This document shows, one piece after another, positions 850-15,622 of a stretch of DNA of 63,884 bases. The stretch is from Chthonomonadaceae bacterium (GTDB lineage Bacteria > Armatimonadota > Chthonomonadetes > Chthonomonadales > Chthonomonadaceae): assembly GCA_027459665.1 (NCBI GenBank), contig DAIDHN010000018.1, forward strand, positions 1-63,884. Reading direction: 5' to 3'. Position 1 is the stretch's first letter, and every line of letters starts with the position of its first letter. Below the pieces are notes generated by a model, which had not been told where the DNA came from, ran no database searches, and was given only the letters and a program-made list of their open reading frames with translations. A program made the position numbers and the translations under genes.

Positions 850-2901
850 TCAATCCAGGGGCTGCGGCAGGATATTCCAGAGATGGAACACTTCCAGGCT
901 GTCAGGCAGTCTGCTGCCTGACAGGACTTCAACCAGAGCTGCAAGCAAAGCATGTTCCGGATGCCGTATTTTATTCTCCAGATAATCTAGAACGGGCGAC
1001 ATGCTCCATTCAGCATCAAAGTCATCTTGCTGAATAACAGTCTTGAGTTTACCAAGCAAAGTTCTATAAGAGCAGGACTGCAGCATGCTGATAGCTATCT
1101 TCAGCCACAAGGTGCGGGCGACAATATATGTTTGCGCCTCATCACGAAGCTCCCATGCAGCATTGGTATGCTCTGCTGCCTCATCCAGATCACCGGTTAT
1201 GATGGCAATGCGAGCGAGGTGACAGTGAGTACTGGGAAGCTCGCAGTCAGCATCAATCATCTCTTGCAAGTAGTGAATAGCTGCTGCATACTCTCCATTA
1301 TTGTAACATGTTAGCGCAATGCTTCTATTATTCATTATGGAATTTGAGCTTGTACCATCCATTCCCTCATCCTTCCACACAATGTTATTTTGGAAGGGAT
1401 TTAATGGAGCTACCTGTCTGGTTCTCAGGTTTGCCAGCATCTCCCAGGTGCATTGATGGTGTTCTGAGTGCGCATTCTGCTTGACAAATGCACCACGAAG
1501 AGCAGCGCGACCAGTCTCAGGAGGTGATGATACAGCCAGATCGATTGCACTGCGATCAGTTAATATATTGTGGTTCAGTATTCCCGCCTCGTTCATCTTG
1601 TAAAAAATCCCTCCAAGCTCCAAAAAACGAGTATCCGCTTCAAGAAGCTGCAGACGAAGTTTCAGAAAACGGGGCAAATCGCTCCACATCATGCCGTTAT
1701 TGTTGAGGTAGCCTATTACCTCTTTCGCCTCGCTTCTTTCAGGGGAGAGATTCTTCACCATCTCTGGTGTAAGCAGTTCAATTGCTGGTGTATTGCGTTT
1801 CATCTCTTGAAACAGTTTGGCGGCGACATTATTCCAGTGTTTCAATGACTCCCATTCAAAGCCTTCTGCATCGCACATTGCAGTGTAGACAGCCCGCTTT
1901 ATGGTCCAGTCAAGTACCCACTCGCGATCTGTACCCTGCAATGCATGCGTGTTCTGCAGCATATCCAGTGTCATCTCCCAGCCTTTCAGCACCTGCTCTG
2001 ACCACTCAGGCAACCCGCCGCAGCTGTGCTGTCTGCAGACAAGAGCGAGATAGTACCGCTGAATGTCTATAGCACTTACCTGGTTTCCCTCTGTGGTTAT
2101 TGCGGTAGCAGTGAGTGTGGGGTCGGCAGAAAACACTCGGAGCGCAGCCATAGGGTTCTTCAGCATGAGTTGCTCGTCGGGTAGTCCGCCTGCATCTATC
2201 ATTGCGATTACAAGCGCTGTTACGCCTGCTTGCAGAAACATACCGACCTCTGATCCAAGTGCATCGGCACAAATCAGATGGAGGCGGTGGTATCCATTTC
2301 CACCCAGCGGCTGATCACGCAGATTCAGGATTGAGCGAGAATCCATTGTACTGTCGCTGGTCACAGTTGTCAGAAAGTGAGAGCGTGGAGAAAGTGTGAA
2401 TGAAATACCAGGGCTAAAAGGGTCAAAGCCGCCTGAGCCAGTGTAGACAATTCTGCTCACCAGAAAGGGGATAATATTCTTATATCGGGTGGGTGGGAAG
2501 CGGCAAAGGTAGTTTTCATGGCATGCCCATGCCTCAGGCTGAGGGCCGTAACCCGTATTGCCTCGAAACACGAGCGCGCGGGAGGGAGTATGGTTTTGCT
2601 CGTACTCTCGCACGAGTTCAGCCATGATTAGATCCCCAGCCAGTACATAGCGCACCAAATCCCAGGGGTTGGTGCACTCTGGCGTGCAGTATTCCGGATG
2701 ATTGCCAACGTCGATGTAGAACCTTCCGCCGTTGGCAAAAAATATGCCTTTGCTATTGTAGCCTTCGAGGCTCTGAAAGCGTTTGTTTGCGATCGCCAGA
2801 AGCGAGAGTGCAGGGGTAGACGAATCTGTGCAGCACCCATTGTTGTCGAGAACCGTAAGCGCATATTCGGTCTCGATCCCTATCAAGGTATTTGTAGTCA
2901 C
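850..2901 (-). CDS. pafA: PafA-like Pup ligase with C-terminal helical-repeat (TPR-like) extension
   Basis: Predicted carboxylate-amine ligase of the PafA/Dop fold that would attach Pup to target lysines using ATP. The frame has 683 residues against roughly 450-500 for known PafA. Visible motifs are GIETEY (8-13), FYIDVGNHPEY (61-71, with Asp64 at the position of the PafA catalytic base), ACHENYL, a YHRLH segment, LDWTIKR, and a late PPETGRAALRGAF block that matches PafA better than Dop. About 60 residues are inserted after LDWTIKR. From about residue 521 a 163-residue alpha-helical tail (ALTCYNNGEYAAAIHYLQEM, then LARIAIITGDLDEAAEHTNA) looks like TPR repeats and could bind substrates or partners. 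The start overlaps the stop of pup by four bases, implying translational coupling. The ligase/hydrolase assignment rests on motif comparison by eye. Confidence 0.85.
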   Translation of the reverse strand: MTTNTLIGIETEYALTVLDNNGCCTDSSTPALSLLAIANKRFQSLEGYNSKGIFFANGGRFYIDVGNHPEYCTPECTNPWDLVRYVLAGDLIMAELVREYEQNHTPSRALVFRGNTGYGPQPEAWACHENYLCRFPPTRYKNIIPFLVSRIVYTGSGGFDPFSPGISFTLSPRSHFLTTVTSDSTMDSRSILNLRDQPLGGNGYHRLHLICADALGSEVGMFLQAGVTALVIAMIDAGGLPDEQLMLKNPMAALRVFSADPTLTATAITTEGNQVSAIDIQRYYLALVCRQHSCGGLPEWSEQVLKGWEMTLDMLQNTHALQGTDREWVLDWTIKRAVYTAMCDAEGFEWESLKHWNNVAAKLFQEMKRNTPAIELLTPEMVKNLSPERSEAKEVIGYLNNNGMMWSDLPRFLKLRLQLLEADTRFLELGGIFYKMNEAGILNHNILTDRSAIDLAVSSPPETGRAALRGAFVKQNAHSEHHQCTWEMLANLRTRQVAPLNPFQNNIVWKDEGMDGTSSNSIMNNRSIALTCYNNGEYAAAIHYLQEMIDADCELPSTHCHLARIAIITGDLDEAAEHTNAAWELRDEAQTYIVARTLWLKIAISMLQSCSYRTLLGKLKTVIQQDDFDAEWSMSPVLDYLENKIRHPEHALLAALVEVLSGSRLPDSLEVFHLWNILPQPLD

Positions 2902-3095
2902 TGCCCACCTCGCTGTTTGGACTGTCTCAGAAATGTGTCAGAGTTTTGGCTGAGTGTACGGTTTATGACTTCTCGAGCTGCTGTGAGCCTCTGAGCAGAC
3001 TGCTGCAGGTTGTCACGCTTTGGCAGGGTTTCTTCGGGGGAGTCTGTTTCGTTGACCTGTGGTTCGGTTCGGGCAGTTTTTTTTTGAAGTTCCAT
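2898..3095 (-). CDS. pup: Pup, prokaryotic ubiquitin-like protein (C-terminal Gly-Gly-Gln)
   Basis: A 65-residue, hydrophilic protein lying between the Dop-like and PafA-like genes. I chose the ATG at 3095 because GGAG lies eight bases upstream; a longer frame up to 3185 lies inside the neighbouring gene. The C-terminal part, INRTLSQNSDTFLRQSKQ followed by RGGQ, matches the Pup pattern of an acidic or polar helix, a Phe-x-Arg segment and a terminal Gly-Gly-Gln. A terminal Gln must be deamidated to Glu by Dop before ligation, which fits the Dop-like gene directly upstream. Pup homologues outside Actinobacteria (some named UBact) are known but uncommon. It overlaps the next gene by four bases. 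Confidence 0.9.
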   Translation of the reverse strand: MELQKKTARTEPQVNETDSPEETLPKRDNLQQSAQRLTAAREVINRTLSQNSDTFLRQSKQRGGQ

Positions 3096-3099
3096 TGTT

Positions 3100-4707
3100 T
3101 TATCTCCGTGGTTCAGAGCGAAATACGTCGCTCGCATAGTAGTAGCTAGTGTCTTCCATAGTATGAGGCGCGTGAGATTTACCATGCACAGTTATCACAT
3201 CCTGGCAGGGTGCAAGTACCTTAAGAATTGCAAGAGGACTGATTTTGTTGCGATTCTTAAAGAGGCCTCCATTTTGTGCGCGTGCCGATCCTGCAGGATC
3301 ATCCAGTTTTGCGGTTCTTATTCGCCTAAAGATGTCTGACGACTGCCGGATGCAAACTTTGTCCCAGTCTACAGCAACGACTTCCGACCCGAATTTTCGA
3401 AGCAGATGGGCGCGTGTGTAGGCCCTTGTGTCGGAAGGAGGCTCATGGACAAACCGCTGAACTTGAGAATCGGATACAGGAAGGTCTACATACCCTGCGC
3501 CCTCCATTGCCCAGTAGAGACCTTCTTGTGGATTCAAACTGCCGTAAAGTAAATCCAGCTGCTTGATCTCAGGAGATTCCCATGTCAGCCCCGGGGTTTC
3601 GTTCATTATCTCAGTCAGCAGACTGCGTTTTAGCACCCAGTCTAGCCGGCGTGAGAGTGTCTCCCAATCTCGGGCAGCAAGACGTTCCAGGGTGTCTCCC
3701 CATAGGTTTATTATTTCTGCAGCACGCGGCACCATCTCTTCGCACCCTCCGGCTGAAACAAAACTGGAGGCAGCATCGAAGAAGCGCCACTGTAATTCAA
3801 GTGCAGTTAAATCTTCGTCTCCCAGGGTTTTGTGTTTGATGGTGAAGTCTAGATCGTGACTGAAAGTACGGAACGCAAGCAAGGGCTGTTTCAGCATGAG
3901 ACTGGGCTTGATTTGGGTGTTTTCACTTTCGACCATTGCCAGCAGTATCTGCATGATGCCAACTTTCAGAATATTTGCTGTGTGAATGAGGTTGCTGTCG
4001 CAAGAGATGTGGTGGAATCTGGCATATTTGGCATCGATGCCACAGAGTGCCTCGTTGCGGCAGTTGATGATGGGGCGGCTGAAGGTAGTTTGCAAACCTA
4101 CAACCTCCTCGAAAAAGTCGGCGCGCTGGCTTAGCTGATAATCAACTCGTTCGGATGCTCTTTCGGCTCCCACCTTGCCCTGGCCTGTGATGAGAGAACT
4201 GCACGCCTGGTAACTTGCCAGCCACAAGAGCATGTCAAGCCGAAAATGAAAAATATTTTCAAAGCAGCTTCGTGAGATAAGGAAGTTGAGATGACTGCCC
4301 CAGGATGAACCGAGGCCGTCACTGTTGCAAGCAAGCGCCTGCAGAGAAACTCCGGGCTGCAGCGTGGCTGAGGCATTGTGCAGAGCCGCCTGTACAATGC
4401 GCAGCTGTGCATGAAATGCGGCAGTAAAGTCCCAGGCGCTTCGTACCTCTGGCAGACAGATTTCCAGGTGCTCCAAGTCGATGTAGCAGCATGATCCGTT
4501 GCTCAGCCATTTTCTACCGAAGTCTTGCGGGTCGTATTTCAGTGTGCCAAATGCACTACCGGGAGTGCCTGCAATATGCCTCAGAAGGAGTTTGCTTGCT
4601 TCTGCGCCTGTTCCCTGCGGTAAGAATTCTCCAAGCAGGAAATTTCCGATTTCTATGTCTGCGCCGACTATTTTGGGCAACAGTTCAGGCCGGTTGTCTT
4701 TTTTCAT
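3100..4707 (-). CDS. dop: Dop-like Pup deamidase/depupylase, divergent active site
   Basis: 535 residues from the ATG at 4707, which has GAGGAA six bases upstream; an earlier in-frame ATG at 4743 has no good site. Dop removes the amide of Pup's terminal Gln and cleaves Pup from substrates. The C-terminal half is close to Dop: LTWESPEIKQLDLLYG, PPSDTRAYTRAHLLRKFG and VDWDKV line up with the Dop blocks. The active site is looser than usual: the GxExEY motif reads GADIEIG (Glu19 kept), the Asp of the YxD motif is present (Asp77), HPEY is HLEI, SHENY is SHLNF, and the usual RDEPH reads RNEALC. It may be a weakened enzyme, a specialised hydrolase or a Pup-binding pseudoenzyme. The pup start lies four bases after its stop. 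Confidence 0.8.
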   Translation of the reverse strand: MKKDNRPELLPKIVGADIEIGNFLLGEFLPQGTGAEASKLLLRHIAGTPGSAFGTLKYDPQDFGRKWLSNGSCCYIDLEHLEICLPEVRSAWDFTAAFHAQLRIVQAALHNASATLQPGVSLQALACNSDGLGSSWGSHLNFLISRSCFENIFHFRLDMLLWLASYQACSSLITGQGKVGAERASERVDYQLSQRADFFEEVVGLQTTFSRPIINCRNEALCGIDAKYARFHHISCDSNLIHTANILKVGIMQILLAMVESENTQIKPSLMLKQPLLAFRTFSHDLDFTIKHKTLGDEDLTALELQWRFFDAASSFVSAGGCEEMVPRAAEIINLWGDTLERLAARDWETLSRRLDWVLKRSLLTEIMNETPGLTWESPEIKQLDLLYGSLNPQEGLYWAMEGAGYVDLPVSDSQVQRFVHEPPSDTRAYTRAHLLRKFGSEVVAVDWDKVCIRQSSDIFRRIRTAKLDDPAGSARAQNGGLFKNRNKISPLAILKVLAPCQDVITVHGKSHAPHTMEDTSYYYASDVFRSEPRR

Positions 4708-4764
4708 AGTTTCCTCACATGTCTGTTTTTCGCAATCCCCCACTTTAGCGTGGAGAGGTGTTTA

Positions 4765-6441
4765 TCAGGCAAGGCTCATATAGCGCAGCGGACGGACGAC
4801 CCGTCGGAGTATGGGATCTACCCCGACCACATGTTCGTCTTCTGGCAGCGATTCAAGATGATCGTGTACATTCTGAGGCGTTAAGGTGGTGATAAGCCGC
4901 TGTATCGCTTCTGCCAGTGCCACTTCCATGTCATCCAGTCGCAGCCCTTTGTCACCAGTGTTAATTTCACGCTGCAGAGCGCGCCGCTTTACAGAGTGGC
5001 AGATTTGCTGAATGAGGCGGCCGCTCACAAGTTCTTTTATGGCCACTGTGCGCGTTTTGCCATCTCTCAGCTTGAGAACACAAATCTCGCTTTCGGCATT
5101 GGGCGCATAGAGTCTGGAAACGGCTCGTTCGATCATCTCCGTTCTGGTGTTGCCAGCAATACCTTGACAAGCTTGATAAGGAATATCCTCTTCGAGATGA
5201 ACCGAGAATATTTCTTTGGCACCTCGAATATCTGGCCTGTGTACAGGTATCTGATCTCCAAATCGCGAAAGCAAAGCTGAGTCGAGCAGGTCTTTGCGAT
5301 TGCAGGCGCCAACCACAGAGACGTTGTGCAGCTGCTGAAAACCGTTCATCTCGTTGAGCAGGGTGCTGAGCGCTTTGTCGTCATGATGACCTGCATAGCT
5401 GCCTCGAGTGCGAGCCACGGCTTCGATTTCGTCTATAAAAAGGACAGCGATATTGCCTTCAGCGGCTGCCTGACGCATGCTGGTGAAGAGGGCAGTGATG
5501 TTCGCCTGCGTCTGACCGACCCACATTGACTCCCATGAGCTTGCATTGACGACAGAAAGAAAAACCTTTTTGCCGCTGCGCCGCTGAATCTCTGCGAATA
5601 CAGCCCGGGTCATGCAGGTTTTGCCGTTTCCGGGCGGCCCGTAAAGCAGAAGGGTGTTGGAGCAGGGAAGGCGGTATTGTTTAGTTCGATCTGGGTAGAG
5701 CAGGCTGTTGAGCAGCGCTTCCTGTATTCGATTTAGATTGCCTTGCTGTCCCCCAATGCTCTCCAGCGGAATATCTTCAACTTGCTCAAGCAGGTACGGG
5801 TTGCGCTCCGAATCGTCCATTTTTTCCTGGCAGAGGCGCGCTGCCCTATCCCACCGCACCAAATCACCGGGACGCAAAGCGATATCTTGCAGCGAGGAAG
5901 CAGCTTCTACCACAACCTTCTCATCGCTGTGCGTCGAGCGCAAAACAATTCTTGCATCTGATGTGTAACGTTCAAAATTTGCTATCTCCCCGCTCTGCGG
6001 GCGAGAATCTGCGGTTTTTACAAGTACGCTTTGATCTGAACTCAGATAGACAGATTCGCCAGTGTGCAATGCGTTCGCGTTCACATATGAGGAAAGCGCC
6101 ACTATCCTGCGTCCATTTCCGCAGGCTACCAGAGCCATCTCGCCTTGCGGGGTCTGCTCCATGTAGAGAAACAATGCAGGAATGAGCGGAGCTTCGGAGT
6201 ACTTATCGAGCAGCGTCTGCGTCTCTTCCATTTGCGCATCAGCCTCTTGCAGCCCGGTGCGATACATGCTGATCTGGCTCAGTAACAGATCATCCAGTTC
6301 GGGGCTGCTTTCAGGCACCCGGCTGCGCGCAGACTGAAGCGACGCCAGTGCATCTGCCTGAGAGGCTTCACCATTCTGCCATGCGCGAAGCACCCTCAGC
6401 GCATCCTGGAGAGAATCCGTATTTTTTTCGGTGCGAGACAT
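4765..6441 (-). CDS. arc: ARC/Mpa-like AAA+ ATPase of the Pup system
   Basis: 558 residues with the layout of ARC/Mpa, the hexameric ring that binds Pup and unfolds pupylated proteins: a helical, probably coiled-coil N-terminus (about 50-82), an OB-type beta region (about 85-200), then one AAA domain with Walker A GPPGNGKT (268-275) and Walker B LFIDEIEAVARTRG. The start ATG has AAGGAG nine bases upstream. The family usually ends in a Gln-Tyr-Leu type motif that docks into the 20S proteasome; here the end is RPLRYMSLA, without that motif. Together with the absence of prcA/prcB nearby, this suggests a proteasome-independent unfoldase or another partner protease. It lies between the deubiquitinase and the Dop-like gene, with gaps of about 50-60 bases. 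Confidence 0.88.
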   Translation of the reverse strand: MSRTEKNTDSLQDALRVLRAWQNGEASQADALASLQSARSRVPESSPELDDLLLSQISMYRTGLQEADAQMEETQTLLDKYSEAPLIPALFLYMEQTPQGEMALVACGNGRRIVALSSYVNANALHTGESVYLSSDQSVLVKTADSRPQSGEIANFERYTSDARIVLRSTHSDEKVVVEAASSLQDIALRPGDLVRWDRAARLCQEKMDDSERNPYLLEQVEDIPLESIGGQQGNLNRIQEALLNSLLYPDRTKQYRLPCSNTLLLYGPPGNGKTCMTRAVFAEIQRRSGKKVFLSVVNASSWESMWVGQTQANITALFTSMRQAAAEGNIAVLFIDEIEAVARTRGSYAGHHDDKALSTLLNEMNGFQQLHNVSVVGACNRKDLLDSALLSRFGDQIPVHRPDIRGAKEIFSVHLEEDIPYQACQGIAGNTRTEMIERAVSRLYAPNAESEICVLKLRDGKTRTVAIKELVSGRLIQQICHSVKRRALQREINTGDKGLRLDDMEVALAEAIQRLITTLTPQNVHDHLESLPEDEHVVGVDPILRRVVRPLRYMSLA

Positions 6442-6489
6442 TTTTTTCGATCTCCTTGTTCTGCCTGTGTTGATAGCATCATCAGGCTG

Positions 6490-7512
6490 TTAGTCGAGCA
6501 GGTAGAATCCCCGTGGCTCAATTATTCCGCTGCGCCAGCCATAGAGCGCATGTACAATTTCCCATCCCCCATCGGGGAGGGGACGATCTCCGGTGACAAG
6601 AGCGGTATGAAAACCCAGTGAAAAGACTGTACGATGAACAGACTTATCGTCTGAACTGAAGAACTGCTGCCCCAAAGGGCAGTGACGCTGCAGCTCAGGC
6701 CCACATGTGCACCAAAAACGTGAAGGGTGAGTGTGGTGCCAGGCGAGAAAGACTTCTTCACGGTTGCGCAGGAGGATCGCGGCCCTGACTGCATCCCAGG
6801 TTGCGGGGGTAAATGTGAGCCTGGTTGACTGCGCTATGGTATGAAGCGCTGGAACCAGAGCCGTGACCTCTGCGAAAACCTCGGGCGACTCTGTATCTCG
6901 CCAGAGGTAGCCAATCAGGATGCCGCCAGTCTCATTGACGTTTGCTTCTTCTTTGAGCGCTTCGGCCTGCTGCAGCACGGAGAGTGGTATGAAGACCGGG
7001 TAGTCACCCGTTTCCTCGGAACCACCTATGAGCCGGGAAGACCCTAGAAAAGACTTTAAAGGTCTTTCACCGCAGAGCGGTGAGGAGGGCACCTGCTGCA
7101 CATGCCAGCCTTGAGGTTGTCCCGGCCCGTCGGCAGCCTCCTCTGCAGAACAGGCGAAGGCGGCGATTCGATAGTGAAAGGTCTCTCCTACCTTGAGCTT
7201 TCCCTCTTCGATACATCGGGAAGAGACCGACTGTACCTGGCTCTTGAAGTAGGCTAGAGGGATATCGCAGGGGATGTCTCTGCCATCTCCATTGCAGACA
7301 ACAGCCTGCACGCCACTAAGGTGAGGCGCGCCATCAGCGTCCCAGACAGGAACAATCCTCTCAGGCCCTACTAACGATTTACTTTGCCTGAGCGCAAGGA
7401 ATCTGGCTGATTCAGTGGCGGGATGCCAGTCTGGGGTGATTGGATACTCTCCGATAGGGATTCCTGCTTCTGAGGAGAGTACCGCCAGCAAACGGTAGGG
7501 GAGACCGGCCAT
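6490..7512 (-). CDS. JAMM/MPN-domain deubiquitinase-like metalloprotease
   Basis: 340 residues from the ATG at 7512, preceded by AGGAGG; that site sits over the end of the modifier gene, so the two are coupled. The C-terminal half is a JAMM domain: Glu194 in NETGGILIGYL, His260 and His262 in HHTHP, then Ser286 and Asp289 in FFSSDD. These are the zinc-binding and catalytic residues expected of an isopeptidase. The spacing from HTHP to the Ser/Asp pair is longer than normal because of an insertion with several Cys and His (WCTCGPELQRHC), perhaps a second metal site. The first 170 residues are a separate domain I do not recognise. It probably removes the neighbouring ubiquitin-like protein from targets. 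The modifier already ends in Gly-Gly, so maturation is not needed. Confidence 0.85.
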   Translation of the reverse strand: MAGLPYRLLAVLSSEAGIPIGEYPITPDWHPATESARFLALRQSKSLVGPERIVPVWDADGAPHLSGVQAVVCNGDGRDIPCDIPLAYFKSQVQSVSSRCIEEGKLKVGETFHYRIAAFACSAEEAADGPGQPQGWHVQQVPSSPLCGERPLKSFLGSSRLIGGSEETGDYPVFIPLSVLQQAEALKEEANVNETGGILIGYLWRDTESPEVFAEVTALVPALHTIAQSTRLTFTPATWDAVRAAILLRNREEVFLAWHHTHPSRFWCTCGPELQRHCPLGQQFFSSDDKSVHRTVFSLGFHTALVTGDRPLPDGGWEIVHALYGWRSGIIEPRGFYLLD

Positions 7513-7516
7513 GTCT

Positions 7517-7822
7517 TTAACCTCCTGCGCCCCTGCCGGCATCCACGGTTGGCATCAGGCGAAGAGTGTCATCAGCCTGAAGCGAATCGCCAACACGTTC
7601 ATTCCCTCCCAGGTATCTGCCCTCGCGCTCGCTGCGCACTCCGTAGGTCAGGGGACGGCCCTCCGGGTCCTGGGCGGGCTGCTGCATTGTCGCCAGCAGA
7701 TACTTTACAACCTCATCTATGGTCGCCTGCGATGGAATTTTGCTTGCGACAAATGTCTTTTGGCCGGTTACATCGGTAACTGTTATCGGTCCGATTTCAT
7801 GTTCATGCGTCATTTCACTCAT
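7517..7822 (-). CDS. Ubiquitin-like modifier with free C-terminal Gly-Gly
   Basis: A 101-residue protein whose last residues are DAGRGAGG, with nothing after the di-glycine, so the mature C-terminus for E1 activation is encoded directly. The body fits a beta-grasp fold: an ITVTDVTGQKTFVA hairpin, the helix IDEVVKYLLATM, then strands ending in DDTLRLMP, as in ubiquitin-like proteins. Its position between the E2-side genes and the JAMM protease gives the strongest support. AAGGAG precedes the ATG at 7822. The first four bases overlap the stop of the upstream gene. Confidence 0.85.
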   Translation of the reverse strand: MSEMTHEHEIGPITVTDVTGQKTFVASKIPSQATIDEVVKYLLATMQQPAQDPEGRPLTYGVRSEREGRYLGGNERVGDSLQADDTLRLMPTVDAGRGAGG

Positions 7823-8694
7823 TTCAAGTTATCTCCTTGTATGGTTTCTTTCAGCTTGCCAGATGTCATTGCAAGGTAGGTTGAAGCGATATCAACCTGC
7901 TTCAGCGCCAGCAGCTCGTGCTTCATTCTTGCAGCGCTTACGCTCAGTGCGCTAAGCGCCATTGGTAGATCAGTCTCCAGATCAGCAGCCTCCAGGCTCA
8001 CAAGCAGCAGGGCGCGATGGGTGTTCACCTTTACCTCGGAGGCCGAGCGTACCATTCGGAAGAGCTGACACGCCCTTAAAAGCAGATGCGTAATTGCCTG
8101 AGTACAAATGTCAGGCAGCTGCTCGTCCCACTCGCCGAGGAGTACGCTCACGACAAGACCATGGTGGTGCAATGTGATTTCTGCCTGACTGAAACTGGGG
8201 GTGCCTTCCAGTTCAACCAGCAGTGTTCCGGGCGAGCGCTCAAGAACGGGCCAGCCTGTTTCAGAACAGATCGCCTTCAGTGCCGTATAATCTGCTTCAG
8301 GTTTTGACTGCGGTAAAGGATTGAGAGGGGCGGTTTTGCATAGGAAATCGAGTGCCTGCTGCAGAATGACGCCGCCCTCCTGTATTATTTTCTCGACATT
8401 TTGATGTTGTGAATGCACAATAATATCGAGCAGCAGTGCAGGCTTGCCAGACGGGCAAAGGCAGAACTTTGCTCCCCCTGGCACGGTTTGATTGAGTTCC
8501 AGAAGTTTTATCAGGTCATGCTCATATTCGTTCGGCAGAGAGACAGCAAGCCGTACCCAGTCTGTTTCTACCCGGATGGCGGGGTGGGAGAAGGCGGTCT
8601 CTTCAGCCGACAGATTGTTCTGCAGACTTTTCACATGCACGCCAGTTTGAAACGGTCTTCGCTTTGCGAAAATGCGATCTGTAAATGCTAGCAT
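7819..8694 (-). CDS. Unrecognised protein of the Ubl operon, possible tandem domains
   Basis: 291 residues, soluble, without a signal peptide, membrane segment or metal motif. I do not recognise the family. It appears to hold two related alpha/beta halves: residues about 40-130 (including LLLDIIVHSQ and an amphipathic helix) and about 150-275 (including TLLVELEGTPSFSQ, RALLLVSLEAAD and a long helix). The pattern of antiparallel strands plus helices loosely recalls YbjN or type III secretion chaperone folds, but this is inference from the hydrophobic pattern only. Tight packing between E2 (3-base gap) and the modifier (4-base overlap) implies a core role, perhaps as adaptor, E2 partner or substrate binder. 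Confidence 0.7.
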   Translation of the reverse strand: MLAFTDRIFAKRRPFQTGVHVKSLQNNLSAEETAFSHPAIRVETDWVRLAVSLPNEYEHDLIKLLELNQTVPGGAKFCLCPSGKPALLLDIIVHSQHQNVEKIIQEGGVILQQALDFLCKTAPLNPLPQSKPEADYTALKAICSETGWPVLERSPGTLLVELEGTPSFSQAEITLHHHGLVVSVLLGEWDEQLPDICTQAITHLLLRACQLFRMVRSASEVKVNTHRALLLVSLEAADLETDLPMALSALSVSAARMKHELLALKQVDIASTYLAMTSGKLKETIQGDNLK

Positions 8695-8697
8695 AAG

Positions 8698-9204
8698 TCA
8701 ATGTTTCTCCTCTATTTCCATATGAAACCTTCGCCGTTTCAGCGGACGGCTGTCGATGGGAAATCGGGACATGTTCTCACGCGCCCAGTCGGCTGCCTGA
8801 GGGTTGAGAAAGTCGACCAGATTAAGATTCTGATAGGTTAAAATGCTGTGAATCTGATAGAGAATATCGATCAATCCGACCCCAGGACGCAGATGCCCTG
8901 TGCAGAGGGCAGGGCCATATACGTTGGGATGCCAGACGTTGGGCGTCAGCATCCAGACCATTTGCACCGGGTTGATTTGCCTTAGGTGATCTTCACCGAA
9001 ATAGATCCCAGCGACAAAATGGTCCGCTTCGACTATTTCGCCGTTCAGCTGCCGTATCAAGCCTTTGCACATGAATTGAGCAACAAATCTTCGACAGGGC
9101 GATTCCGCATCATCGGGGATGATTATCACCAGATCGGTTTGATCTGCAAAGGCCTGCCAGTCTGATTCCTGTCGACGTAGCCAGGAGGCTAAAATCCGGT
9201 CCAT
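8698..9204 (-). CDS. E2-like ubiquitin-conjugating enzyme
   Basis: 168 residues with a UBC-type core. The segment WHPNVYGPALCTG (91-103) corresponds to the HPN...C active-site region of E2 enzymes, giving Cys101 as the thioester-forming residue. The following LIDILYQIHSILTY and NLVDFLNPQAADWA helices match the E2 C-terminal half. It should receive the modifier from the E1 encoded directly upstream and pass it to lysines, with or without the RING protein. The start is set by GAGGAG nine bases upstream and overlaps the E1 gene by 16 bases. Confidence 0.87.
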   Translation of the reverse strand: MDRILASWLRRQESDWQAFADQTDLVIIIPDDAESPCRRFVAQFMCKGLIRQLNGEIVEADHFVAGIYFGEDHLRQINPVQMVWMLTPNVWHPNVYGPALCTGHLRPGVGLIDILYQIHSILTYQNLNLVDFLNPQAADWARENMSRFPIDSRPLKRRRFHMEIEEKH

Positions 9205-10313
9205 GTCTGTAATCTCCTCGCATGTGGGCGCTGCGCTATGAGGTAGTGCCGTTCACCAAACTGGTCTTCTACGGTAAGCAGATCTCCTGGCCGCAGCCCC
9301 AGGGCAGCCGGCCCTCTTGCCAGCAGGCGCGCCGGAATATCGTGGCAGCGCAGATGCTCTTGCAACATTCCGGGGCGGCAAGTTGATGTGTCGCCGCAGA
9401 ATCGACAGCTCTGAACAGGACTGTCGCGCGTGCCGACGCACTGAATGGGCCGATCTATGCGCCCGCAACGCTGGCAGGGCTCTCGCCGCAGGAAGCGCTG
9501 CCCCGGTGCGGAAAGGGAGACGCTTTCAGAAGACATGCTCATCCTGTCAGCCGGCACCACCGGGAACAGAAGGTCTTTCAAGCGCAGACGGCCTGAGATC
9601 TCCTGCGGAGCGAACACCCGGTGGTCAAAGCGACATTCCGGATTTCGGCGGTTGTGACTGACGTAGTGCCGGTGACCGTTCAGCCCATAGAGCACCTGCT
9701 CTCCCGCACGCTGCTCGTCCCTCTGACCGTGCAGCAACTTGTCCACCTCTGCCGCCTGAAGCGAAGCCGCTAAAGCGCCGAGGTAGGCGGGTGCGTTGGT
9801 CGGGGCTGCAGAAGACGGCCCCTTCTGGCAGGGATGACGCACCTCCATAGTGTCGTAATGTTGCTGCGTAAAGGCGCACTCCAGGCAGGGGGCCGACATG
9901 GCAGGTAGAAATATTTCTATGCGAGTCAGCCTCTCCGAGGCCAGCACACCAGAATCTATCCACGGAACGCCGAGACGCCAGGCAACCTCGTTCACGTGCA
10001 GTCGGCTGAGCCTTGAGTCCAGACAGGCACAGATGACACTGCATGACAAAGCCCCATAAGGCAGCGATTCTACGTCGCATATGTGCGTGGTGATCGGCAA
10101 GTTCGGCCGAATACGCTTTAAAAATCTCCTCATGGCATGCGCCTTCGGCATACCTACCTCGGCGAGTGAGATGTTTTGCGTGCTCAGGTTGTCATGCTCG
10201 TAAACGCCGGGGTCTATTAGCGTGAGGCTTTGAATCTCTTGCATGCGGGCGAGCAGACCGCAGAGTGCTGAACCAATATTCCCACAACCGATGATCGTTA
10301 CGTGTCCGTCCAT
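9189..10313 (-). CDS. ThiF/E1-like activating enzyme with C-terminal zinc-ribbon extension
   Basis: 374 residues. The N-terminal Rossmann motif GCGNIGS (9-15) and TLIDPG define an ATP-using ThiF/MoeB/E1 adenylation domain. CLEC (143-146) is the usual first half of the structural zinc site, and Cys162 precedes an AYLGALAASLQAAEVDKLL helix, the position where MoeB-type enzymes carry a conserved Cys. After about residue 270 there is an extra domain with CQRC and CRFC pairs, likely a zinc ribbon, then a short basic tail. It should adenylate the Gly-Gly end of the modifier and load the E2. Extra zinc ribbons are not part of the minimal family and may bind E2, modifier or nucleic acid. Confidence 0.87.
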   Translation of the reverse strand: MDGHVTIIGCGNIGSALCGLLARMQEIQSLTLIDPGVYEHDNLSTQNISLAEVGMPKAHAMRRFLKRIRPNLPITTHICDVESLPYGALSCSVICACLDSRLSRLHVNEVAWRLGVPWIDSGVLASERLTRIEIFLPAMSAPCLECAFTQQHYDTMEVRHPCQKGPSSAAPTNAPAYLGALAASLQAAEVDKLLHGQRDEQRAGEQVLYGLNGHRHYVSHNRRNPECRFDHRVFAPQEISGRLRLKDLLFPVVPADRMSMSSESVSLSAPGQRFLRREPCQRCGRIDRPIQCVGTRDSPVQSCRFCGDTSTCRPGMLQEHLRCHDIPARLLARGPAALGLRPGDLLTVEDQFGERHYLIAQRPHARRLQTWTGF

Positions 10314-10321
10314 GACGCATC

Positions 10322-10852
10322 CTATAGCTCTTCGGGAGTCCAGCGGTAGCCATCATCCAGAGAGCCGGGGCGCCCGCAGAAAGCACACGGCCCATATGTC
10401 CAGCACAACAGTTCCTCACTGGCATCCTGGTGGTATGTAACGCCACAGTCACAACGGACTGCCGGCTGACCAGGAGCAATTTCCAGCTGACACCTCGGGC
10501 AGAGGACTTTTTGAGCAGCGCCTTTGAAAGGAATAATTTGCGGCAGCATCTCGGTTGAAAAAAAATGCCTCGGGCCGTTTGCTGCCTGAATCTCGTCTTT
10601 GTCGCGCAGTACTCGAATATTGAGATCTATCGGCTCTCCGTTGATGCGGCAGCCACCCTGCCGGGTGATTAAAACCCACTGTGATCCATCTGCGTGCAAC
10701 GCCTGCAAAACTGCAACCGACTCTTCAAGCTCACCGCCTTGCCCGATTCGCAGCGATTGTGCAGGGTATTCGGGTAAAATAATCAGACTTCCAGCAGGCA
10801 AAGGCAAGATTTGCCACTCATTTATGTTATCTTCAATCCACAGGTGAGCCAT
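10322..10852 (-). CDS. FHA-like plus RING-type protein, E3-like ligase component
   Basis: 176 residues. The first 95 look like a degenerate FHA domain: RINGEPIDLNIRVLRDKDEI resembles the C-terminal strands where the NG and L-x-D-x-D features sit. Residues 118-159 carry a cysteine/histidine array: Cys118, Cys121, Cys134, Cys136, His141, Cys150, Cys156 and Cys159. This order is that of a prokaryotic RING or related binuclear treble clef. Such domains are known next to bacterial E1/E2/ubiquitin-like/JAMM genes. The FHA-like part could bind phosphothreonine targets. AAGGA precedes the ATG at 10852, and the E1 gene starts eight bases after its stop. Confidence 0.8.
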   Translation of the reverse strand: MAHLWIEDNINEWQILPLPAGSLIILPEYPAQSLRIGQGGELEESVAVLQALHADGSQWVLITRQGGCRINGEPIDLNIRVLRDKDEIQAANGPRHFFSTEMLPQIIPFKGAAQKVLCPRCQLEIAPGQPAVRCDCGVTYHQDASEELLCWTYGPCAFCGRPGSLDDGYRWTPEEL

Positions 10853-10890
10853 TTTTGGTATCCTTATCGATTCAGATTCTGAGATAGCAG

Positions 10891-11361
10891 CTAAAGAGCT
10901 GCCTTGACCTGCCCGGATAGCGCGGTTGCGATCTCAAGCTCTACTGCCTGGCCGGCATCTGTGGTGCCATTTCCGACCTGGCCGGTTTGAGACCATGTTT
11001 GGTCAACAGGTTGGTCAAAACTGGCCAGAATCTGAGTTTGTGTTGCCGTTGGCAGAGCCTTCATGGCGTCGACGCCAGAGCTGAACGTACTCGAACTCAC
11101 GAAACCTGAAACGATCGCAGACAACCTGCCAGAAGAATCGAAAGCAGCCTGATCTGCAGCCGAGAAGCCAGGGTTGTAAATATCGCCGCCCGGCCTGACG
11201 ACATTCCGCTGATCCTGGGCAATCAGGCGGCCAAGCGAGTTGACTGCTGCCGGCCAGTTTGGATTCGGAACGTAGTTCACGGCGCCATTACCACTGGCGC
11301 ATCCGATGACTGTCAATGCCAGGGCGGTGCTGGCGAGAAAATGCATAGGCCTCGACTTCAT
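10891..11361 (-). CDS. Small lipoprotein at the head of the Pup/Ubl operon
   Basis: 156 residues with a basic N-terminus, a hydrophobic stretch and the lipobox LTVIGC, so it should be exported and lipidated at Cys21. The mature part is Gly/Ser/Ala/Gln-rich with no recognised domain. GAAGGAG lies six bases before the ATG. The stop is 38 bases from the next gene and no terminator is visible between them, so it may be co-transcribed with the conjugation genes. An envelope protein would be an odd member of a cytosolic modification system, so the link may be positional only. Confidence 0.75.
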   Translation of the reverse strand: MKSRPMHFLASTALALTVIGCASGNGAVNYVPNPNWPAAVNSLGRLIAQDQRNVVRPGGDIYNPGFSAADQAAFDSSGRLSAIVSGFVSSSTFSSGVDAMKALPTATQTQILASFDQPVDQTWSQTGQVGNGTTDAGQAVELEIATALSGQVKAAL

Positions 11362-11739: not shown

Positions 11740-12183
11740 CTACCGATGCCGCTTAGCACGAGCGACCGCGAGTATCTTGCCCCCAACCTTTGGCAGGGTG
11801 TCGATGGTGGAGGACGGCTTATACCCAGGCTTGACAAGCAGTGCCGCGAACTGATACCCTCCGTGTATATTAGCGCTCCATTGCCCATTCTTGTTAATAT
11901 CTGTGAAGGGCGCATCTGCGTAAGGCTGTACGTACCATGTATTGCCGAGGGAGTAAATAACCACCCTGCTTCTGGCTGGAACATTGTGAGCGATGCCGCG
12001 GATATCTCCAAATGAGTCTTCACCCGGCCCTGCGCTCGGTATGTGAGTGATGGAGATGGAAATTCTTACCTTGGCAGGGTGCCGTTTTTTTGTTTGGTGA
12101 CCGGCACCTGCCATGCCTGCTGTTACAATCATCATGGCCCACATAAGGAGCTGGGTAGACAGAAGAGAACGATGAAGTTTCAT
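11740..12183 (-). CDS. Secreted protein of unknown function
   Basis: 147 residues from the ATG at 12183, with AAGGAG upstream; an earlier ATG at 12228 lacks a site. The N-terminus is a typical signal peptide (basic, then hydrophobic LLMWAMMIVTAGMAGAG). The mature part is beta-rich, with GDIRGIAHNVPARSRVVIYS, NTWYVQPYAD and GQWSANIHGGYQFAALLV, suggesting a single beta-sandwich domain seen in exported proteins. No catalytic motif is visible. It is divergent from the STAND ATPase gene at 12307, and the two share an intergenic dyad that could coordinate them. Confidence 0.75.
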   Translation of the reverse strand: MKLHRSLLSTQLLMWAMMIVTAGMAGAGHQTKKRHPAKVRISISITHIPSAGPGEDSFGDIRGIAHNVPARSRVVIYSLGNTWYVQPYADAPFTDINKNGQWSANIHGGYQFAALLVKPGYKPSSTIDTLPKVGGKILAVARAKRHR

Positions 12184-12204
12184 ATCACATTTTCTCCTTT
12201 CATC

Positions 12205-12227
12205 TGTTATCGATTTGTGTGATAACA
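12205..12227. promoter_or_regulatory. 7-bp dyad, candidate operator between divergent genes
   Basis: TGTTATC (12205-12211) and GATAACA (12221-12227) are perfect inverted arms separated by nine bases. The dyad lies between the secreted-protein gene (start 12183, minus) and the STAND ATPase (start 12307, plus). The arm length and spacing suit a dimeric repressor. No regulator can be assigned. Confidence 0.4.
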
Positions 12228-12306
12228 TTACTTTGATCTGTTTTATTATTTAACCTGAACTGCAGGCAGCAAGCAGTGGAAGATATCAGGAAGATTAGGA
12301 TGGACT

Positions 12307-14748
12307 ATGCCAAGCAATAAAGCTGTAAAAAAACGCTACCGTGCCATGATTTTGACAGACGCGGCGCTTGCAATGCTGAGCAAAAGACTGAGTACTTCGT
12401 CAAGCAGAACATTAGCAGATGCTATGGGCCTGGATTATAAAACTGCCAAAAAAGTACTTGATCAGGGCGGTAATGACATCGCTATATTTAAAATAGTTTT
12501 CGAAAAAGTTGGTTTGGTTTGGAATGATACGTATGCTGTAGGGAAGCCGCTTTCAGCGGCAAACAATCTCCCTGCCGCCACAGATACTATCGGTCGAGGT
12601 GACGATGTTGAGACTATTAAGAAAATGCTGGAGCAAAGGAAATTTGTTTCTCTCACAGGACCAGGAGGGATTGGGAAGACACATCTTGCCCTGTCTGTTG
12701 CCAGAGAACTTGTTAATAACCAGCAGCAATATCCCAATGGCATATGGTTAGTGAATTTGCAGCTGCTTAACCCAGGTAATACAGAATTGCTTTACCAGAC
12801 TATCGCAAGGGTTCTAAACGCGCCTCCTGAAGTTGATAGCGAGTCGAATCTTATCAAATGGTTGTCTAACAAACAATTGATTCTTATTCTTGATAATTGT
12901 GAACATTTGCGCGCAAAGTGTGCCTCTTTTTTAGATTCTTTGTTAGCAAACTGTTTTAACGTAAAAATTTTGACTACAAGTGTCAGTAGCTTGAATGTGA
13001 ATGGGGAGCAAAATTATTTGGTTCCGGCTCTAGAGCTGCCCAGCTCACCAGAGGGTTTGGATGAGAGTGATGCAGGCAGCGGCTACAAAGAGTGTGTGGT
13101 CGATAGTATGTCGGGTACTCTGTTTATCCATGAGGCGAAGTTAAAAAAACACGATTATGAGTTATATGACAACCAGGCTAAGGAGGTATTTGACCTACTA
13201 CATTTTTGTGAGGGTAATCCTCTCTGGATCAAGCTGGCTGCAGCCCAGATAAATCATGGAACTGCAGAATTGTTGAACAATATGAAGCACATGTTGTCGG
13301 GCAGCCCTGGATCATCCACTCTTCAGATGAGCTTAGACAACATGATGGACTGGGTCTTAGATATTTTGAATAAGGAACCTAAGGCTGCTTTACTATTGTC
13401 TCGCCTTTCTATATTTGAGGGAGGGTGGACCATTGACGCCGCTAAATCGGTATGCAGCGATCAAACTGATATAAATGAGAATGAGATTGGGATTATCATT
13501 ACTACACTCATAGATTGGAACCTGATAGTTGCCCCAGACTCTGAATCTCGGTATGTAATGCTTGAACCGATCAGAATATATGCACAGGGCAAACTCGCTC
13601 AGTCTGATAAAGAACAGTTGCAAGTAAGCATGCTCCAGTACTATACCTCCTGGACAATGCAGGAGGTAAGCGGCTTGATGACCTCAGCCCAATCACGAAT
13701 TCTGAGTAGAATTGGTTCAGAAATTCATAACCTATCAGTGTGCCTGCGGCATTCTAAACCTGAGAATAGGGACAATGTGTTACGGCTGGCGGTCTCACTC
13801 ACCCCATTTTGGGACATTCGCGGCTATTGGCTCGAAGCTTATAGTATTATTAGCAGCCTCATTATTGATGTTGAAAAAAATAGCTGTGACTCTATTCTGC
13901 ACGCGGTTGTATATGTATCTGCAGGGATATTCGCCATGCGATTGAGGAAGTTCACTGAATCAAACGAGAATTTTATAAAGAGTAAGAATCTGCTCTTGAA
14001 ATTGCTTTCCAAATCACCAGACGAATTGCTCTCTATATCACCAGGCAATCTGTATTCTATACCACCAGGTGATAGCTTGTGTCTTGGCTATCTTGTAAAG
14101 GTATATAATAATCTGGCCAGTGTTGCTCAAGAAAGTGGTGATTTTAATACAGAGATAGATTATTATCTCCTTTCAATACAGATAAAGCAAATACTTGGAG
14201 ACTCTAATGGCGTTGCGGTCAGCCGTATAAACATAGGGTACTCATACTATCTTCAAAGCCTTCTGGATAAAGCTGCAGAAACACTGGAACTGGGAATATC
14301 CGAGCTTAATAAGAATGGAGACTCCGCTCCACTTGCAAACGCACACAACAACCTGGGTGGTGTCTACAGACTTAAAAATGACAAGCAGAAGGCACTTATT
14401 CATCTCAAACTCAGTCTGGGTATGCGTCAAAGGCTGAAGGATAAACGTGGACTAGTCTATTCGATCTACGAATTTGCTCAACTCCTCAACTGTTGCGAAA
14501 AGTTCGAGGAATCTACACAGCTGATAGCACAAGTCGAATGGCAGATAATAAAGCTTGGCAGTTCATTCCCTTCTGCAGAGCAGGTGCGCATGAAAAAGTT
14601 ACTCACATTTCTAGAGGAGAAATTAGGCAATGAGAGATACATTTTGAATTGTAAGAAAGGGAAAAAAATGTCTCTGACTCAAGCAGCGAATTTTTGCGCT
14701 GATATAGATACAGAAGTCGCTTCGAGCGATAGAGATCAACCTATCTAA
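12307..14748 (+). CDS. STAND-type (NB-ARC-like) ATPase regulator with TPR C-terminus
   Basis: 813 residues. The N-terminus (about 10-80) is helical with an apparent helix-turn-helix (TLADAMGLDYKTAKKVL), followed by a nucleotide-binding domain with Walker A GPGGIGKTH and Walker B LILILDNCEH. These are hallmarks of the AfsR/MalT-like predicted ATPases. The C-terminal third has TPRs (AVSRINIGYSYYLQSLLDKA; NAHNNLGGVYRLKNDKQKA). Such proteins act as ligand-controlled switches, often transcriptional. AGGA lies about eight bases before the ATG. The gene looks clearly more AT-rich than the neighbouring Ubl operon, which may mean a separate origin. The cyclase fragment at the left edge probably belongs to the same broad protein class. 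Confidence 0.8.
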   Translation: MPSNKAVKKRYRAMILTDAALAMLSKRLSTSSSRTLADAMGLDYKTAKKVLDQGGNDIAIFKIVFEKVGLVWNDTYAVGKPLSAANNLPAATDTIGRGDDVETIKKMLEQRKFVSLTGPGGIGKTHLALSVARELVNNQQQYPNGIWLVNLQLLNPGNTELLYQTIARVLNAPPEVDSESNLIKWLSNKQLILILDNCEHLRAKCASFLDSLLANCFNVKILTTSVSSLNVNGEQNYLVPALELPSSPEGLDESDAGSGYKECVVDSMSGTLFIHEAKLKKHDYELYDNQAKEVFDLLHFCEGNPLWIKLAAAQINHGTAELLNNMKHMLSGSPGSSTLQMSLDNMMDWVLDILNKEPKAALLLSRLSIFEGGWTIDAAKSVCSDQTDINENEIGIIITTLIDWNLIVAPDSESRYVMLEPIRIYAQGKLAQSDKEQLQVSMLQYYTSWTMQEVSGLMTSAQSRILSRIGSEIHNLSVCLRHSKPENRDNVLRLAVSLTPFWDIRGYWLEAYSIISSLIIDVEKNSCDSILHAVVYVSAGIFAMRLRKFTESNENFIKSKNLLLKLLSKSPDELLSISPGNLYSIPPGDSLCLGYLVKVYNNLASVAQESGDFNTEIDYYLLSIQIKQILGDSNGVAVSRINIGYSYYLQSLLDKAAETLELGISELNKNGDSAPLANAHNNLGGVYRLKNDKQKALIHLKLSLGMRQRLKDKRGLVYSIYEFAQLLNCCEKFEESTQLIAQVEWQIIKLGSSFPSAEQVRMKKLLTFLEEKLGNERYILNCKKGKKMSLTQAANFCADIDTEVASSDRDQPI

Positions 14749-14970
14749 CAGTCAGCCATTTTGTACTGATCTTTCTGCTTTCAACGTTGGCTGTAGTAGA
14801 GGTGTTTTTTTCTGTTCTGGTTTGAGCAAAATGATCTGAGGCAACTGGCAGGCAGAGAATAGTAAACGTTTGGTCATGCAGACGCCCTGTCTTCATGGGG
14901 GGTATTTCCAGAGAGACAGGGCGGGCTGGTGCTGTGCGATGCATTTTGCAGAGAGCGGGTGTGGCTGCAA
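14749..14970. terminator. Convergent intergenic region with candidate hairpin
   Basis: This region separates two convergent genes. GCCCTGTCT (14884-14892) and AGACAGGGC (14914-14922) form a perfect 9-bp inverted repeat with a 21-base loop, a possible terminator for the minus-strand envelope operon. A 100-codon minus-strand frame crossing this region has no start signal or domain. Confidence 0.35.
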
Positions 14971-15612
14971 TCACGGCGTCTGCGGTATTTGAGCGCCGCA
15001 TTCTGCACAAAATTTTGCCCCTGCCTTTACAACTGCACGGCAAGATGGGCAGTGGGTTTCAGTGTGAAAGGGTGCGCCGCACTGCGCGCAGAATTTGCCG
15101 CCCGAAGCAGGAGCGCCGCATTCTGCACAGACGGCGCTGCCAGGGGTTTTTACATCTATTCCTTCTGTTTGATCTACTGCCAAAGTTTTCTCCTGTACCT
15201 GCATGCGTGCTGCCTGTGCCTGTGCGCTCGCAAGTTCTTCTATAAGCACAGGGGCACACTGTTTGCACAGCCCTTTATCGCTGTTCCAGCAGACTTTTCT
15301 GCATACCCAGGCGCCACAGCGGCTGCACTGCACAAACAGCGGCTTTATTTCTTCAACCGCATGCTGCAAAGCTCCATCATGCGCTGTTCCGCCCACTGCG
15401 CGTTGTATGTCGTAGGCGGTATTGGAAGCTGGGCTGAATACTCCGCCCAGCATATCGCTGGCAGCACGAAACAAGCTTCCTGCCATGCCGAGTTTGTTTT
15501 TCTGAAAGCCCGAAAGGTATCCATTTCGGCAGTGGTCACAGTAAAACCTGAACTGAAAGCCTTCATCGGTTGAAAGATCATCATAATTTTGTACAAACTC
15601 TATCACGTTCAT
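14971..15612 (-). CDS. Double zinc-ribbon protein
   Basis: 213 residues. A central part has CSRCGAWVCRKVCW and CKQC pairs, and the C-terminus has several CxxC knuckles: CAECGAP, FCAQCGAP, HCPSCRAVV and FCAECGAQ, a DZANK-like tandem zinc ribbon. There is also a CDHC near residue 25. No catalytic domain is seen, so it is probably a protein- or nucleic-acid-binding adaptor. AAGGAG precedes the ATG, ten bases after the CsgG-family gene, so it closes a four-gene unit otherwise made of exported proteins. Confidence 0.8.
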   Translation of the reverse strand: MNVIEFVQNYDDLSTDEGFQFRFYCDHCRNGYLSGFQKNKLGMAGSLFRAASDMLGGVFSPASNTAYDIQRAVGGTAHDGALQHAVEEIKPLFVQCSRCGAWVCRKVCWNSDKGLCKQCAPVLIEELASAQAQAARMQVQEKTLAVDQTEGIDVKTPGSAVCAECGAPASGGKFCAQCGAPFHTETHCPSCRAVVKAGAKFCAECGAQIPQTP

Positions 15613-15622
15613 TTTATGCTCC

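Follow-up and report, generated by a model that had tools for sequence, protein, structure and literature searches.

Contig DAIDHN010000018.1 of a Chthonomonadaceae bacterium from the phylum Armatimonadota (assembly GCA_027459665.1) carries, in one cluster, genes for protein tagging by a ubiquitin-like modifier (Ubl) and by Pup. The two kinds of tagging rest on unrelated chemistries and are usually viewed as alternatives. The window analysed here is the whole of this contig (63,884 nucleotides), labelled C18, from a draft genome 3.67 Mb in size and 99.9% complete. Ten open frames at 850-10852, all on the minus strand and with four overlaps, encode in order of transcription FHA-RING, E1, E2, X, Ubl, JAMM, ATPase, Dop-like, Pup and PafA-like proteins (Table 1). 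The initial annotation had seen a single unit here, holding a complete Ubl cascade and a complete Pup set, and this stands: all the genes it named are present, on the same strand and tightly packed. Its count of eleven genes is revised to ten, since the lipoprotein gene that it included (10891-11361) adjoins the system in no relative, and X, previously unnamed, is a full member.

Layout of the operon

Successive intergenic gaps from FHA-RING to PafA-like are 8, -16, 3, -4, -26, 48, ~57, 4 and -4 bp. The largest spacings are the ~57 bp between the ATPase gene and the inner ATG at 4707, which we read as the Dop-like start, and the 48 bp between the JAMM and ATPase genes. GGAG/AGGAG-like sites lie upstream of several start codons. 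Scans of the minus strand showed nothing resembling a terminator where the JAMM and ATPase genes meet (6441-6490), a place at which one would have counted against the initial annotation, and RNA folding at this point is unexceptional (z -0.74); the ten-gene cluster is therefore likely to be transcribed as a single unit. GC content is 53% in the cluster and 49% elsewhere on the contig. Domain searches of the operon proteins recovered Pup_ligase twice, the proteasome ATPase, ThiF and Prok-JAB, with weak matches to UQ_con and Prok-RING. JAMM, E2, RING and Ubl match weakly as single sequences and are backed by family alignments.

Table 1. Genes of the operon in window coordinates, from first to last transcribed
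Gene product	Position	Strand	Features
FHA-RING, probable E3	10322..10852	-	N-terminal FHA-fold domain, C-terminal Prok-RING_1 zinc domain
E1-like adenylating enzyme	9189..10313	-	ThiF/MoeB fold, ThiF E 2.6e-27
E2-like enzyme	8698..9204	-	HPN motif and invariant Cys101
X, two-domain protein	7819..8694	-	C-terminal domain of type III secretion chaperone/YbjN fold
Ubl, YukD-like modifier	7517..7822	-	Conserved end ...DAG, then tail RGAGG
JAMM/JAB metalloprotease with N-terminal extension	6490..7542	-	Prok-JAB E 0.0016
ARC/Mpa-type AAA+ ATPase	4765..6441	-	N-terminal helical region, OB domains, one AAA module
Dop-like enzyme (depupylase/deamidase)	3100..4707	-	TIGR03688 E 1e-82; Pup_ligase E 3e-93
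Pup-like modifier, 65 amino acids	2898..3095	-	Ends RQSKQRGGQ; Pup E 0.045 alone
PafA-like Pup ligase	850..2901	-	Pup_ligase E 1e-75; C-terminal TPR region

Recurrence and co-inheritance

Four aligned Dop-like proteins (A2) served as the query in a scan of 84,980 species genomes, which yielded 15 loci: four in Verrucomicrobia (including a Pedosphaera metagenome-assembled genome, MAG), three in Acidobacteria, two each in Planctomycetes and Armatimonadetes, and one each in genomes labelled Latescibacterota, Proteobacteria, Deltaproteobacteria and Chromatiales. A Pup_ligase search of relatives found divergent pairs in a few genomes, with the full set at L031 and L032, which are the Armatimonadetes scan loci L051 and L049, and the genes from X to PafA at L034 until its contig ends (L and G numbers are our labels for loci and genomes).

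Ten loci (the window, L051, L049, L041, L042, L043, L044, L047, L050 and L106) have all ten genes, with order and strand unchanged, and the full-set copies span Verrucomicrobia, Planctomycetes, Latescibacterota, Proteobacteria and other Armatimonadota, at least five phyla. The ten loci are remotely related, with protein identity often 30-45%; loci truncated by contig ends, in Acidobacteria and others, keep the order of the genes that are present. By these gene assignments, conservation of order over ten loci is far beyond chance. The more remote Armatimonadota copy, L106, retains all ten genes; among them are E2, a frame resembling X, and a Pup whose end reads RQRGGQ. L048 is an exception, having a long frame on the opposite strand after Pup instead of a PafA-like gene; the PafA-like gene of that genome is on another contig. 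The proposal that E1, E2 and Ubl genes would recur beside Pup, Dop and PafA genes in several genomes is thus supported, in related and unrelated hosts alike.

Strong scores to a JAMM profile came from 5 of 291 Armatimonadota genomes, with one divergent copy in addition, and in the phylum of G121, a verrucomicrobial MAG, the seed genome was the only positive among 289 sampled. Taken together, the comparisons indicate that the Ubl-Pup pairing is real, conserved, rare and widely shared.

Patristic distances for the Ubl half and the Pup half are correlated (Mantel r 0.95; r 0.79 when the outlier L106 is left out; permutation p 0.0002). Strongly supported nodes are common to the two half-trees, and many deeper nodes are weak and conflicting. 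Synteny and these distances identify the halves as one co-diverging unit. Armatimonadota copies are scattered in both half-trees, which weakly suggests transfer of the whole unit, and horizontal transfer probably accounts for at least part of the spread of the operon. Carriage by mobile elements was considered and set aside, the only matches being of ~34% identity in two plasmid-collection records (one of 11.8 Mb) and one unannotated phage record; no relatives were found on viral contigs. The phage record, of 159 kb and faecal origin, has Dop/PafA-like sequence at 34% identity in two places (MT835496.1:42213-43355).

The ubiquitin-like half

The predicted FHA-RING model (predicted local distance difference test, pLDDT, 82) has almost exclusively FHA domains among its best 50 Foldseek matches, with VIA Z scores to FHA of 8-9.7. 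Nine of the 11 family members match Prok-RING_1 (best E 3e-6; E 0.1 for the window member alone), and the cysteines are invariant. The usual phosphothreonine-contact residues are absent from the invariant columns of the alignment, and phosphopeptide binding is therefore uncertain.

The E1 family profile finds MoeB (E 7e-24) and UBA5 (E 2e-17) as well as ThiF. Its invariant features are GxGxxG, CxxC, the candidate catalytic Cys162, and four C-terminal cysteines in a zinc-ribbon pattern. UQ_con matched 4 of the 12 E2 family members (best E 0.0014); H92 and C101 are invariant in the E2 alignment and P93 and N94 nearly so, and HPN with an invariant Cys is the arrangement of eukaryotic E2s. Matches to HIV capsid in the E2 profile search were dismissed as chance.

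X keeps its position in every locus that reaches that far and is a possible substrate adaptor. Its predicted model (pLDDT 79) gave VIA Z up to 12.7 to type III secretion chaperones and YbjN, with a root-mean-square deviation (rmsd) of 2.9 over 128 residues (model residues 133-267), and its N-terminal half may be a second copy of the C-terminal domain. Foldseek ranked Arp2/3 subunit 2 first, with an rmsd of ~17, which we read as a similar tandem arrangement, not homology.

The YukD-like fold of Ubl is assigned from profile matches alone: the YukD profile matched 3 of the 15 family members (best E 2.9e-4), and the window copy matches SAMP1 at E 0.0066. The 15-row alignment shows a conserved Ala-Gly end, beyond which the copies have 0-11 variable residues; four copies stop exactly at AG, and L047 has Ala-Ala where the others have Ala-Gly. 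The modifier had initially been described as ending in Gly-Gly, which proves peculiar to the window copy, and the conserved Gly-Gly mature end of di-glycine modifiers is absent from the family. A conserved Ubl lysine, as could serve Pup-on-Ubl chains, was also sought and rejected, the position after the invariant Gln21 being Lys in ~9 of 15 copies. The JAMM family profile finds STAM-binding protein and RPN11 at E 0.006-0.01, and E204, H270xH272, S296 and D299 are invariant in the JAMM alignment.

Some Armatimonadota have Ubl clusters that lack Pup (L108:4727-10091, L109:6370-10844 and L110:6869-11651, with similar ones in several families of the phylum). They contain E1, E2, a YukD-like Ubl with a TAG end and between one and three JAMM genes; RING is present in some and absent from others.

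The Pup half

The pupylation traits of a Pup with a G[EQ] end beside a PafA/Dop gene, and of PafA/Dop catalytic motifs, are both found at the locus. The ATPase matches TIGR03689 (proteasome ATPase) at E 1.4e-81 and has invariant Walker residues; among the PDB chains listed, Mpa/ARC alone aligned its residues 29-516 as one stretch. Compared with solved structures the Dop-like protein scores 212 bits to Dop and 117 bits to PafA. In it GADxE replaces GxExE, and Y73xD75xxH78xE80 is conserved. The PafA-like protein scores alike to Dop and PafA structures, and has GIETE, FYIDVGNHPEY and HENY at PafA-like spacing; motifs of this kind are present in most PafA-like proteins.

PF05639 at E 0.001 detected no Pup in this genome, so Pup is assigned by gene position and by its relatives, of which 13 aligned copies, or 14 if L106 is counted, lie at the same place and end in [GS]G[QE]. 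The C-terminal residue is Gln in seven of the 13 and Glu in six, and deamidation by the Dop-like enzyme would thus be needed only in some copies. Lysine depletion of Pup, as a guard against attachment of Ubl to it, was rejected (23 lysines observed, 21.5 expected).

Two further genes of related type were seen at other loci. L041 has a small separate gene like the C-terminal TPR tail of the PafA-like protein (19609-20121, minus strand), and the proteobacterial L050 has an additional Pup_ligase-family gene convergent with the operon (14589-15995, minus strand).

Proteasome genes in the hosts

The window genome also has a separate canonical Pup-proteasome cluster (G000:C2:71695-78009, in L037:9600-16010). 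This encodes a 20S beta subunit alongside its own ATPase, Dop and PafA, and its Pup ends RYRQRSGE. Identity between the window enzymes and this canonical set is only ~27-34%, and the window operon is therefore a second, distinct system. A second PF00227 protein is on contig C23; PF00227 matches in this genome are confined to C2 and C23, with none in the window, and no operon copy contains a peptidase-core gene.

PF00227 searches covered the genomes of the 15 scan loci together with G035, G036 and G008, with matching sequences classed by eye. Most are HslV-like (GDGQV after Thr), and G121, G122, G123 and G126 have no match at all. Of the 16 other genomes with a paired locus (the 15 scan loci and G035), 14 showed no recognisable 20S beta subunit. 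One was recognised in G131, in G132 (L052, a verrucomicrobial MAG, judged by its canonical Dop neighbour, not by sequence) and in G008; the two of these that are paired-locus hosts carry, like the window genome, a separate canonical cluster. Weak matches in G036, G134 and G135 were left unclassed. The host of L047 (Latescibacterota), a single-chromosome assembly, has only an HslV-like gene among its PF00227 matches.

Flanking genes

Flanking genes are unshared, except for a divergent upstream unnamed gene family in three loci (L042, L050 and L055). In the window, a lipoprotein-like and a signal-peptide-like small protein are encoded 5' of the operon (10891-11361 and 11740-12228, minus strand), and a STAND ATPase gene (NB-ARC and TPR; 12307-14748, plus strand) is divergent from it, ~1.5 kb upstream. 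A NACHT-FGE protein is encoded downstream of the operon in L044.

Interpretation

We put at about even the chance that this is a conserved ten-gene dual-modifier operon whose two kinds of tagging are coordinated and whose ATPase acts without a 20S proteasome in most hosts. Catalytic residues are conserved in the E1, E2, JAMM and Dop-like alignments, as is the Pup end, which supports it. In outline, JAMM would cut the Ubl tail back to ...Ala-Gly, in the way that pro-ubiquitin in archaea is trimmed by Rpn11 (PMC5654768), and E1 and then E2 would relay the trimmed modifier. FHA-RING, aided by the chaperone-fold protein X, may then attach Ubl to selected targets, and the PafA-like enzyme would add Pup, after deamidation by the Dop-like enzyme where Pup ends in Gln. 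JAMM and the Dop-like enzyme could each strip or edit tags. The N-terminal helices of the ATPase are expected to bind Pup, with the target unfolded or extracted from a complex; as no 20S was found in most hosts, extraction, unfolding or hand-over to another protease seems likelier than 20S degradation.

Several points weigh against this interpretation. The halves can part: G008 has a paired-type Dop-like gene and two PafA-like genes (L033:9451-14123, on G008:C14) with no Ubl half, no ATPase and no recognisable Pup, either a reduced remnant or a set put to different use. Missing 20S genes may stem from incomplete draft MAGs. The C-terminus of the ATPase is not decisive for 20S docking, and was dropped as proof against it, since the canonical ATPase of the same genome also lacks the GQYL end. 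E2, RING, Ubl and Pup are weak matches as single sequences. Finally, it is profile scores and motifs that underlie the names Dop and PafA. When Armatimonadota references are included in a tree, canonical Dop and PafA form one group and both paired-system families lie outside it, so that the labels denote likely chemistry only, not orthology.

Two independent tagging systems could simply share a promoter and act on separate targets with no joint substrate or motor, a situation that the Ubl/E1/E2/RING/JAMM clusters without Pup at L108, L109 and L110 and the Pup-half remnant in G008 would fit. We think this unlikely, given a gene order fixed across phyla and halves that co-diverge; a rare unit kept whole over large distances implies joint function. 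Also unlikely in our judgement, though compatible with coordinated dual tagging, is a role in defence against phage or stress like that of bacterial Ubl operons (Bil, Bub, CBASS-like), in which the Pup module would be effector or amplifier. The rare, patchy distribution described above, the STAND/NACHT genes near two copies and the presence of related Ubl systems in conflict systems (PMC7159879) speak for it; against it, PADLOC gives only generic E1, JAB and AAA matches and no defence family, flanks are unconserved, no copies were found on plasmids or viral contigs, and no toxic effector was recognised.

A stricter form of coordinated tagging, in which targets would need both Ubl and Pup and in which JAMM and the ARC-type ATPase would be a bacterial counterpart of Rpn11-ATPase/19S, a segregase without 20S, we regard as rather improbable. 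More doubtful still is a second targeting route into a canonical 20S encoded elsewhere or into HslV, which the separate 20S beta genes of the window genome and a few others and the HslV-like genes of many hosts would allow, since four hosts have no PF00227 match of any kind, most others have HslV-like genes only, and no operon copy includes a peptidase core.

An operon with both tags, both deconjugating enzymes and one unfoldase makes the placing of two tags on one substrate testable, and likewise the role of a Pup-engaging motor without a 20S proteasome. A question raised in 2006 (PMC1779556), of a link between Ubl conjugation in bacteria and unfolding or degradation, also becomes testable. 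The loci supply many orthologous gene sets for reconstitution.

Comparison with known systems

With the canonical Pup-proteasome system, as in Mycobacterium and in the window genome itself, the operon shares a cluster of Pup ending G[QE], Dop-like, PafA-like and ARC/Mpa ATPase genes; it differs in having no linked 20S genes. Prokaryotic operons of Prok-RING, HPN-type E2, E1, YukD-like Ubl and JAMM were reportedly described by Burroughs, Iyer and Aravind in 2011. The corresponding traits are all present here (Prok-RING_1, E2 with HPN and Cys, E1 with Cys, YukD-like Ubl, and JAMM with E/HxH/D), and beyond them the operon has FHA fused to RING, X, and the Pup module with its ARC-type ATPase. The Ubl-only clusters L108-L110 presumably fit those RING systems. 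Bil and Bub operons likewise hold E1, E2, Ubl and JAMM together, and their published gene sets are not known to include a Pup module or RING. The CEHH motif of the BilB E2 (PMC11354881) is absent from the E2 of the operon, which has HPN and Cys.

The archaeal Caldiarchaeum ubiquitin operon, a working E1/E2/RING/Rpn11 cascade in which Rpn11 trims pro-ubiquitin (PMC5654768), is a precedent for the Ubl half. It shares E1, E2, RING, a Ubl with a C-terminal tail and JAMM/Rpn11, and differs in being archaeal, in its di-glycine ubiquitin and in having no Pup. Bacterial E1/E2/Ubl/JAB operons were described by Iyer et al. 2006 (PMC1779556), and Pup outside Actinobacteria by Iyer et al. 2008 (PMC2588565), with no Ubl link in the portion of that text available.

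The initial annotation had proposed the pairing of Ubl and Pup as a new system, a claim that yields to Kaur et al. 2020 (PMC7159879), where one sentence of the main text, with no gene list, mentions for Thermofonsia and Planctomycetes a coupling of Ubl conjugation to Pup conjugation. Theirs is likewise a RING-type prokaryotic Ubl conjugation coupled to Pup, the genes for both conjugations share one locus here too, and the two are probably the same system. Relative to that mention, what is new is the ten-gene anatomy, the catalytic residues, the breadth, and the finding of no 20S in most hosts; the phyla added to those it names are Armatimonadota, Verrucomicrobia, Acidobacteria, Latescibacterota and Proteobacteria.

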